Assembly (NCBI RefSeq): GCF_002761295.1
Contig: NZ_CP017881.1
Span: 1,673,750 to 1,737,749, forward strand
Direction: 5' to 3'
Source: Methanohalophilus portucalensis
Lineage (GTDB): Archaea; Halobacteriota; Methanosarcinia; Methanosarcinales; Methanosarcinaceae
DNA: 64,000 nucleotides
The notes under the pieces were generated by a model. It was given only the letters and a program-made list of their open reading frames with translations, was not told where the DNA came from and did no database searches. Both the position numbers and the translations under genes were made by a program. Below are positions 55,836 through 60,432 of the stretch, piece by piece. Every line of letters begins with the position of its first letter. Positions within the stretch are counted from its first letter, which is position 1.

Positions 55836-56399
55836 TTACTTACGGAAAACACCGGTATAATGTGGCCACCTGAAATACTCCCCATGCCTGCCGGAAAGTT
55901 CTGCAAGACCTGCTTTTTTCATGTGTTCTACTATTTCTACAGGGGACATACCATGATCATGCTTGGTTGGTTCCCTGATGTAGATAAGACCAGTTTCCTT
56001 AAGTTTGCCTGCAAGAGAATTTATTATTTCCTGCCTGTACTTTTCCTCAATATCATGGAGGACAAAATGAATGAAAACGGAATCAAAATAATTATCAGGC
56101 AGATCTGCATCTTCGATCCTTTCGCAGACAAACTCAACGTTGGAAAAGTCCTTCATCCGTTTTTTTGCTTTCTCCAGCCAGAAAGCAGAGGTGTCAATGC
56201 AAACCAGATTGCCACTGTCTGAAAGGGCGTTTGCTATATGCTTTGAAGCCGCGCCTCCTCCGCATCCAAAATCCAGAATATTTTCATCACCTTTCAACTG
56301 CAGACCCTGAATATATTGTTTATAGCGGAAACTTCCCAAACGGTTCCAGAGAACTTCCATTCGCAATTTTTCGAAAAAACCAGGGTTATCAAAGCTCAT
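55836..56399 (-). CDS. Class I SAM-dependent methyltransferase
   Basis: 187 residues. Motif I ILDFGCGGGAASKHIA, acidic residue in LVCIDTS, motif for the second half VEFVCERIEDADLPDNYFDSV split by LP. Ends in a short substrate-binding extension (EYFRWPHYTGVFRK). Methyl acceptor unknown. Divergent from the GNAT gene with a 106-base spacer. Confidence 0.88.
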   Translation of the reverse strand: MSFDNPGFFEKLRMEVLWNRLGSFRYKQYIQGLQLKGDENILDFGCGGGAASKHIANALSDSGNLVCIDTSAFWLEKAKKRMKDFSNVEFVCERIEDADLPDNYFDSVFIHFVLHDIEEKYRQEIINSLAGKLKETGLIYIREPTKHDHGMSPVEIVEHMKKAGLAELSGRHGEYFRWPHYTGVFRK

Positions 56400-56504: not shown

Positions 56505-56520
56505 CATGGGTATACCCATG
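56505..56520. repeat. 16-bp perfect palindrome at the GNAT start
   Basis: CATGGGTATACCCATG is identical on both strands and contains the proposed start ATG (56506) and a second in-frame ATG (56518). It could be an autoregulatory operator or mRNA hairpin covering the start. Confidence 0.7.
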
Positions 56521-57054
56521 CCAGCAAGAATACATGAAATCATAGAATCCAAAAGGCTTGTCATAAGGCCACTGGAGGAAAAAGATTTTGCTGGTTTTTA
56601 CAGGTTTATTTCAAATGATAAAGCTACAAAATATTTTTTCTTCAGTCAAAAACCGGTATCCTATAAAGATACTCGCAGGTTTTTCCGTAAAACGATGGAA
56701 AACTACGATGAGCCAGACCAGGTCTATGCCTATACTGTTGCAAAAAAGAGCAGTGATGAATTTGTCGGTTCTGTTGGAATGCTTCCTGACCCGGATAAGG
56801 GAGCTTAGCAGGTTTACTGGTCCATATTACCAAAACACTGGAACCGGGGATTTGCAACCGAGGCTATCCAAATCTTCTTGCATCACGCTTGCCGAAAACT
56901 GGATTGTAAGCAGTTCATCGCTTTTTCGCATGAGGACAACATTGCTTCCAGGAAAGTTGCAATAAAAATCGGTATGAAAAATGAAGGACCTACAAATGTA
57001 AAAGGGGTTGACCATAAACCCCTGCGCTATACACTGAACAATTGTGAAAATTGA
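56506..57054 (+). CDS. GNAT N-acetyltransferase with in-frame amber codon (possible pyrrolysine)
   Basis: Reading from ATG 56506, 100 codons precede TAG at 56806-56808; the same frame then stays open for 81 codons to TGA 57052-57054, giving a 182-residue product. The two parts together make a whole RimJ/RimL-type acetyltransferase: SKRLVIRPLEEKDF at the start, GSVGMLPDP before the TAG, and the acetyl-CoA loop HWNRGFATEAI and ASRKVAIKIGMKNEG after it. The only defect is the TAG. In Methanosarcinaceae UAG can be read as pyrrolysine. The alternative is a recent pseudogene. Confidence 0.75.
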
Positions 57055-58792: not shown

Positions 58793-59536
58793 TCATGAAT
58801 GGACCACTGCAGAACTTTTTGTATCAAAAGGATTTGTTCGCATTGCCAGAGAGAAAAGATATGGGTGGTTGTGCTTTAAATACTTCATGTAATTCAGCCA
58901 TTCTATAACAAGCCTGCTATAAGCCCTTTCTATATCAAGAGCCAGATGATCAAAATCCGACTCCGGAAGATCTTCCAGATCCGCGCGGCTAACCAGTTCC
59001 TCCATCAGGTGGAAGACGGCACGCAATAGACCCGTAAAGGATTCATGTTCAAGCAGTGAAGGATTTTCAAGTAAACCTGCCATGAAACTGCGGTGATTTC
59101 TCAGGAAATCACGCAGGAAGACAAGATCCACGTTGCCTATATCCACCGAATATTCATAATTGCGCAGGAATGTAGTAATTTCCTCAAAATCTTCGTCGGT
59201 CCAGTCTTTCCTCACGATTAGCCGATTGCGAACATTTTCAAGACCTGGATCGGCGTCTGAAAAGAAAGCGAGCAATTTAGTTCCCACTTCGCTGAAAAAA
59301 ACACCGATAACCATATTCAATTTTTCAAGCCGCTTGCTTTTCTCCATATCACTAAGCAATTTATGTAATATCATCGTGACAAGCAAAACCTCTATTGGAA
59401 CAAATGCTATATCGCTCACGAGGAATATGAATATGTGGTGTGGGTCGTTAAAAATCAGGTAATGGAAGAAGTAAATAATGGTTGATGCAACCACCAGCGT
59501 TATTCCAAATATTTTGTAACTTTTTGAAATGTCCAT
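58793..59536 (-). CDS. Membrane-anchored hypothetical protein
   Basis: 247 residues. Two N-terminal membrane helices (about 9-28 and 35-60) lead to a soluble cytoplasmic helical domain (FFSEVGTKLLAFFSDAD, DIGNVDLVFLRDFLRNHRS) with a regular helical pattern. The region with LENPSLLEHESFTGLLRAVFHLMEEL suggests a helical bundle. Similar proteins occur in various archaea and bacteria without a known role. Confidence 0.75.
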   Translation of the reverse strand: MDISKSYKIFGITLVVASTIIYFFHYLIFNDPHHIFIFLVSDIAFVPIEVLLVTMILHKLLSDMEKSKRLEKLNMVIGVFFSEVGTKLLAFFSDADPGLENVRNRLIVRKDWTDEDFEEITTFLRNYEYSVDIGNVDLVFLRDFLRNHRSFMAGLLENPSLLEHESFTGLLRAVFHLMEELVSRADLEDLPESDFDHLALDIERAYSRLVIEWLNYMKYLKHNHPYLFSLAMRTNPFDTKSSAVVHS

Positions 59537-59646: not shown

Positions 59647-60432
59647 ATGAACAATTTAATCAAAATAATCCTGATATTTGCCATTTTAATTATAGCAGCC
59701 TCGGTCCTATGGGCCAACCACCAGAACCAGATGTACGAGGATACTTTCCAGAGCGAGTATCAATATGATGTCAGCATAGAAACATTGCAATCACTCCACA
59801 ATGTGACCCTGTATTTACCCCTTCCTTCTGATGGGAATGAATCTTTTCTTTCAGAGGCCCTGAAATCAGAGAACAATCTGAATAAGCCAATCGGATGGAA
59901 CTGTACCATTACAGAAACCAAACACGGAAAAATGCTGCAAATCACAGCACATGAAATTGACCCTGAATTCCATTCAACTCAGGTTCCAATAGAAGAAGGC
60001 CAGAGTGAAGGACCGAACCGTACAATAAACGAATCCACTGAATATTCAGAAGATACGCCTGTTCCCTATCCAGAGGGTTTCAGCATCTACCAGAATGCTG
60101 ATCATGAATTGAACACAAAAAATCCTCTGGAAAACGAAACTACATTCATACCAAAATACAACATAAAAAAAGTTACAAACCAATTCCCCAATGAAGACAA
60201 TGAAAATGTCAAGACGTACCAATACGAAAGCCGTCTTTATGCAAAGTACAACACAACTCCAGAAAACACGGTAGATATTTCCATGAGCTTTATGGGAATG
60301 AACAACTGGTGGATCTATGGCTGGAGCGGCAACCAGTATCATGAACATCTATCCATAACCCTGGAAGGAAGTCAGGACGGCTGGGCACCAATAGAAGGAG
60401 AAATCGTTACTGGTGAGGGGAATTACCGGTGA
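59647..60432 (+). CDS. Secreted or membrane-anchored hypothetical protein
   Basis: 261 residues. An uncleaved or cleaved signal helix at 1-23, then a soluble domain with many Asn-X-Thr/Ser sequons. The stretch NVDISMSFMGMNNWWIYGWSGNQY-type (around 208-230) is aromatic-rich. No cysteine pairs of note and no known family. Convergent with the halocin-like operon that ends at 60509. Confidence 0.65.
   Translation: MNNLIKIILIFAILIIAASVLWANHQNQMYEDTFQSEYQYDVSIETLQSLHNVTLYLPLPSDGNESFLSEALKSENNLNKPIGWNCTITETKHGKMLQITAHEIDPEFHSTQVPIEEGQSEGPNRTINESTEYSEDTPVPYPEGFSIYQNADHELNTKNPLENETTFIPKYNIKKVTNQFPNEDNENVKTYQYESRLYAKYNTTPENTVDISMSFMGMNNWWIYGWSGNQYHEHLSITLEGSQDGWAPIEGEIVTGEGNYR

Follow-up and report, generated by a model that had tools for sequence, protein, structure and literature searches.

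The window analysed here is the whole 64-kb DNA stretch from Methanohalophilus portucalensis, a halophilic methanogenic archaeon, and it contains a forward-strand open reading frame (ORF) that runs from an ATG to a TGA with a TAG at codon 101 as its sole interruption (Table 1). Read through this TAG, the gene is predicted to encode a GNAT acetyltransferase of the RimJ/RimL/SpeG-like type, which by homology would act on a small amine or on the N-terminus of a protein, ribosomal or otherwise. The full-length PF13302 (Acetyltransf_3) profile (positions 1-138) matches residues 17-158, spanning the TAG, with an E-value of 7.8e-28 and a score of 98.3 bits against a curated cut-off of 25.4, which bears out the initial annotation, according to which the frame and the family motifs continue past the TAG without an indel. 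Translation may start at ATG 56506 or at ATG 56518, and with the latter start the TAG residue would be number 97. Two neighbouring ORFs, at 58793-59536 (247 aa) and 59647-60432 (261 aa), had no Pfam match at an E-value of 1e-5.

Table 1. Features of the GNAT locus (window coordinates).
Feature	Position	Strand	Remarks
GNAT acetyltransferase ORF	56506..57054	+	182 residues with TAG as an amino acid; ends in TGA; PF13302
In-frame TAG, codon 101	56806..56808	+	Most likely pyrrolysine; same codon in 6 syntenic orthologues
Codon 102 (CAG, Gln)	56809..56811	+	Invariant in 25/25 aligned homologues; aligns with Glu102 of PA3944
Presumed acetyl-CoA P-loop region, residues 113-119 (NRGFATE)	56842..56862	+	Downstream of the TAG; assigned from sequence
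TGA stop of the read-through ORF	57052..57054	+	TGA in 6/6 syntenic Methanohalophilus copies
Class I methyltransferase gene	55836..56399	-	Flanks the GNAT gene; common to sister species, synteny marker
Hypothetical gene, 94 aa	57117..57401	-	Flanks the GNAT gene; common to sister species, synteny marker

Elsewhere in the window, TAG is shunned as a stop codon. Among 55 non-overlapping ORFs of at least 80 aa, chosen mechanically by length and including one spurious frame (56588-56965) that overlies the GNAT gene, 29 end in TGA, 26 in TAA and none in TAG, in agreement with the earlier observation that the other protein genes checked in the window end in TAA or TGA. With both strands of the window counted, 1048 of 5939 stop trinucleotides are TAG, and by this crude yardstick about one in six ORFs would be expected to end in TAG by chance. 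This pattern suggests that UAG is routinely read as a sense codon. The GNAT gene is the sole ORF of the window with a TAG deep within a plausible gene; the four other TAG-containing frames comprise two 5' extensions of ordinary ORFs and two small unsupported frames.

The host genome, a single contig of 2,084,875 bases, harbors the complete set of genes expected of an organism with pyrrolysine-containing proteins. A tRNA-Pyl gene (anticodon CUA) adjoins pylS, and both are clustered with pylB, pylC and pylD in one stretch; the encoded proteins score 692 (PylS), 512 (PylB), 454 (PylC) and 352 (PylD) bits, all above their NCBIfam cut-offs. The presence of pylT and pylSBCD, on which the initial annotation had made its pyrrolysine proposal depend, is thereby confirmed. 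Furthermore, pylS was found in all eight Methanohalophilus genomes, with tRNA-Pyl adjoining it at 7/7 sister loci. As positive controls, the methylamine methyltransferases behaved as expected: each of nine MttB matches across the eight genomes contains exactly one TAG, and an in-frame TAG is present in two of the three MtmB matches of the host genome. The third MtmB match (L045, G000) is a relative without TAG in the matched part, possibly a non-pyrrolysine homologue with another substrate. Near the pyl cluster, an IS5-like transposase frame (L042:800-2338) has a TAG at residue 6, although its real start may lie downstream. No PYLIS-like element was seen after the GNAT TAG: the 100 nt downstream of the codon form no unusually stable RNA structure (z -0.82), and no Rfam family reached its gathering score in L005 or L042, the Rfam result being a weak negative in that the tRNA-Pyl of L042 was missed as well. 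In the accessible text of PMC8211752, no special RNA element is regarded as necessary for UAG decoding.

A relative of the GNAT protein was detected in seven of the eight Methanohalophilus genomes searched, with no match in G007. Six of these relatives are the syntenic gene, flanked by the class I methyltransferase gene and the gene for the 94-aa hypothetical protein, and each of the six has its TAG at the corresponding codon, whereas the seventh (G003) is a non-syntenic homologue of 43% identity. Five of the six syntenic copies are otherwise intact; the intact copies are close, at 92-95% protein identity to the window GNAT, and silent variation occurs right beside the TAG (GCT/GCC/GCA in the codon before it, GTT/GTA two codons after). 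Since the TAG recurs at the same codon in M. profundi and in all five intact orthologues, which were assembled separately, it is not a sequencing error. In the draft genome of M. profundi (L003), a T run that precedes the TAG in the GNAT gene is one T short, which shifts the frame; this deletion is likely a draft indel error, since the adjacent methyltransferase gene is one A short in an A run. Thus, the possibility that sister strains carry copies broken in other ways, which had been named as evidence against pyrrolysine, applies to one of six syntenic copies, and there probably through a draft error, while the other five are intact. The frameshift in M. profundi and the missing match in G007 do, however, indicate that the gene is dispensable.

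Both sides of the TAG are under purifying selection. When all 10 pairwise comparisons of the five intact copies are added up, pN/pS is 0.196 upstream of the TAG and 0.258 downstream of it, an estimate that rests on few changes because these copies diverge little. Downstream of the TAG in the six species, third positions make up 21 of the 35 variable sites (one-sided binomial P 0.0011), and 19 of 38 changes, counted against a single sequence without placement on a tree, are nonsynonymous, compared with 29.0 expected at random (P 2e-4; a fraction of 0.0002 of 20,000 random placements gave so few). None of the changed bases after the TAG creates a stop, an outcome shared by 16% of the random placements. 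The first in-frame starts past the TAG are TTG 125 and ATG 157, and since both follow the P-loop, the constrained C-terminal half, including codons 102-124, which are nearly invariant among the five intact copies, can be reached only via the TAG. The combination found here, namely an in-frame TAG (not TAA or TGA) beyond which the family match continues in frame, conserved among relatives and followed by codons under purifying selection, is that of pyrrolysine-containing proteins.

Across 27 aligned family genes, the position of codon 101 varies: Thr is found in 12 genes, Tyr in 6, TAG in 5, Ala in 2, and Ile and Met in 1 each. Of the homologues that lack TAG here, the six with Tyr are the closest; they come from G003 (TAC) and from five genomes of genus g7, another genus of the family (TAT), and both Tyr codons are a single base from TAG. 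In the proposed comparison with orthologues, the orthologues keep TAG and the nearest homologues without it have Tyr. In the phylogenetic tree, the TAG rows form one long branch with support of 100/100. Tyr is likely the direct ancestor of UAG 101, an assignment that stops short of proof because the Tyr homologues in G003 and G024, whose surroundings were examined, are non-syntenic, the Tyr rows are only 34-42% identical, and the branch leading to the TAG clade is long.

An AlphaFold model built on a 13-row alignment with Lys in place of residue 101 reached a pLDDT of 86.6 and supersedes an earlier, poor single-sequence prediction (pLDDT 46.1). Compared with solved structures, the model adopts a GNAT fold, with 3fbu nearest (TM 0.76/0.83), followed by PA3944 and RimL. 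In the model, residue 101 opens a strand, which we take to be beta-4. The residue after it, Gln102, aligns with the Glu of PA3944 that is changed to Ala in the E102A structure (PDB 7kpp) and that is probably catalytic. Because Gln102, not residue 101, occupies this place, pyrrolysine 101 would sit beside rather than at the catalytic position, and the idea, derived from P-loop spacing, that it serves as a general base was rejected. Further downstream, G115 and E119 of the motif NRGFATE, presumably the acetyl-CoA-binding P-loop, are invariant in 25/25 aligned homologues. Of the earlier proposal of pyrrolysine at residue 101 next to the acetyl-CoA site, the residue itself is supported by the pyl genes, the conservation of the TAG and the lack of TAG stops, while its location is better described as the opening of this strand, adjoining catalytic position 102.

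The GNAT homologue in G024 (genus g7; L025) harbors an in-frame TAG of its own as codon 95; in the alignment it lies two codons before the Methanohalophilus TAG, at a site where four g7 sisters have Ser (TCA). The dN/dS of this homologue is 0.18-0.20 after its TAG, which indicates purifying selection there, and 0.34-0.41 before it, and pylS is present in the G024 genome. Since it occurs in a single genome, this second TAG is suggestive only.

Taken together, these data make it probable, as suggested from the sequence, that the gene is a functional GNAT acetyltransferase in which UAG 101 is translated as pyrrolysine, the uncommon 22nd amino acid. In this mechanism, tRNA-Pyl(CUA), charged by PylS, would decode UAG 101 and the ribosome would insert pyrrolysine at this position, yielding the full-length enzyme. 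A Tyr codon (TAT/TAC) probably changed to TAG once, in an ancestor common to those Methanohalophilus species that have the TAG, and the TAG was probably retained owing to efficient reading of UAG and to a site that accepts a large side chain. Pyrrolysine would thus be a tolerated substitute for Tyr without a catalytic role of its own, gained by near-neutral drift, the course reported for Thg1 of Methanosarcina acetivorans.

The most obvious alternative, also raised by the initial annotation, is that the TAG is a nonsense mutation in a decaying pseudogene. The one-base deletion in M. profundi and the absence of the gene from G007 would fit such decay, and decaying amber genes do exist in the genus, as the citrate synthase relics in four of the seven genomes with a match demonstrate. 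However, the TAG is fixed in all six syntenic copies, five of which have no other lesion, and the M. profundi deletion, together with that in its neighbour, fits draft indel errors. Moreover, a pseudogene should show relaxed selection and further lesions in relatives, whereas pN/pS after the TAG is 0.26, a lesion is seen in one of six copies, and the downstream codons have the third-position excess and nonsynonymous deficit described above. Because these codons are under purifying selection and can be reached only via the TAG, and given that decay in citrate synthase takes another form (truncation, mixed stops), the pseudogene reading is improbable and did not hold up. The same reachability argues against two separate proteins with an independently started C-terminal half, an explanation that has nothing in its favour except the TAG itself and is extremely unlikely: the available starts lie past the P-loop while codons 102-124 are nearly unchanged, and the homologues without TAG are single ORFs.

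Two further alternatives accept pyrrolysine but assign it a purpose. Pyrrolysine might be functionally important for chemistry or substrate binding near the active site, in line with the unchanged TAG in all six species copies although single changes would give other sense codons, with the position of residue 101 next to the Glu mutated in PA3944, and with the acquisition of a TAG two codons away in a second lineage. This is nevertheless unlikely, as a catalytic pyrrolysine should be conserved across the family, whereas this position is taken by Tyr, Thr, Ala, Ile or Met in 22 of the 27 aligned genes; the aligned position adjoins the catalytic residue without being identical to it, and the species are so close that the missing reversions are weak evidence. 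Alternatively, UAG could act as a switch, in which termination versus pyrrolysine insertion ties the acetyltransferase level to methylamine supply and pylTSBCD activity. Termination at codon 101 would remove the acetyl-CoA loop and should leave an inactive 100-residue fragment, and the accessible text of PMC8211752 describes how release factor and tRNA-Pyl compete. Yet the ORFs of the window shun TAG as a stop, which suggests that UAG is routinely read as sense, the RNA after the TAG has no special structure, and the argument would apply equally to any UAG-containing gene; there is little chance that a switch of this kind operates here. Considered jointly, a pyrrolysine that is useful and selected near the catalytic position, or that couples enzyme synthesis to pyrrolysine supply, is rather unlikely; if it were true, the TAG two codons off in G024 would be a parallel gain and not a coincidence.

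Citrate synthase provides an instructive contrast within the same genus. The gene is intact without TAG in the host genome (G000, L062) and in G003, has one TAG in M. mahii (G004, L063), persists as C-terminal relics in G001, G002, G005 and G006, some with other stops or frame breaks, and has no match in G007. The accessible text of the M. mahii genome paper (PMC3017947) suggests pyrrolysine for the citrate synthase amber. However, the M. mahii protein has also changed elsewhere (e.g., HRVYK to HCVYK), and its gene looks more like a case of ongoing gene loss than like a pyrrolysine enzyme. We therefore rejected this amber as a supporting precedent, the gene being in decay in sister species. 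Because such an amber can sit in a decaying gene, little weight attaches in Methanohalophilus to an in-frame amber taken by itself; the pattern of the GNAT gene is the opposite one, and the two cases show how a read amber can be separated from a decaying gene.

Few pyrrolysine proteins beyond the methylamine methyltransferases are supported by more than an amber codon in one genome. In the GNAT gene, a genus-wide TAG is flanked on either side by codons under purifying selection, is a single base away from the Tyr codons and has a close-by counterpart gained independently in another genus; the gene offers a testable case for UAG as an ordinary sense codon in Methanohalophilus. A 2025 paper has reportedly described archaea that read all TAG codons as pyrrolysine. 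Genes of this kind are at risk of being called pseudogenes or of being split during annotation.

With 3fbu (Bacillus), PA3944, RimL and SpeG, the protein shares the GNAT Acetyltransf_3 fold and motifs, but it has Gln102 where 3fbu and PA3944 have Glu. We know of no enzyme among these Acetyltransf_3 members that uses pyrrolysine. Outside this family, the original report of pyrrolysine in Thg1 (tRNA-His guanylyltransferase) is said to be that of Heinemann et al. in 2009. In Thg1 of Methanosarcina acetivorans, the amber is read as pyrrolysine, is dispensable for activity and is put down to neutral evolution, according to the accessible text of PMC2933860. The GNAT gene resembles Thg1 in having an amber in a non-methyltransferase gene with amber-less homologues; unlike the Thg1 amber, which is physically verified and confined to one species, the GNAT amber is fixed in the syntenic copies of six Methanohalophilus species and its decoding is predicted from sequence. 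Like MtmB, MtbB and MttB, it would be decoded by the same machinery in the same genome, and it shares the single internal TAG observed in MtmB and MttB. However, the pyrrolysine of these methyltransferases is conserved in the family and catalytic, as stated in the accessible parts of PMC2933860 and PMC3017947, whereas GNAT homologues have other residues at this position.

In a literature search with supplements and most subscription papers outside its scope, no report of the GNAT amber in Methanohalophilus was found. A screen of M. mahii for genes with ambers was published by Have et al. (2013; PMC3639795), and its ranked list, placed in the supplement, may include the GNAT gene. The closest counterpart by description is from 'Ca. 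Methanomethylophilus alvus', whose predicted Pyl proteins include a 162-aa 'putative acetyltransferase' (AGI85596.1; PMC4153887, Table 7), and half of the Pyl list of this species has amber-less homologues in two related genomes according to the accessible text of that paper. Likened by description only, AGI85596.1 and the GNAT protein are both small acetyltransferases with a predicted pyrrolysine in an archaeon that avoids TAG stops, but the host of AGI85596.1 belongs to another order.
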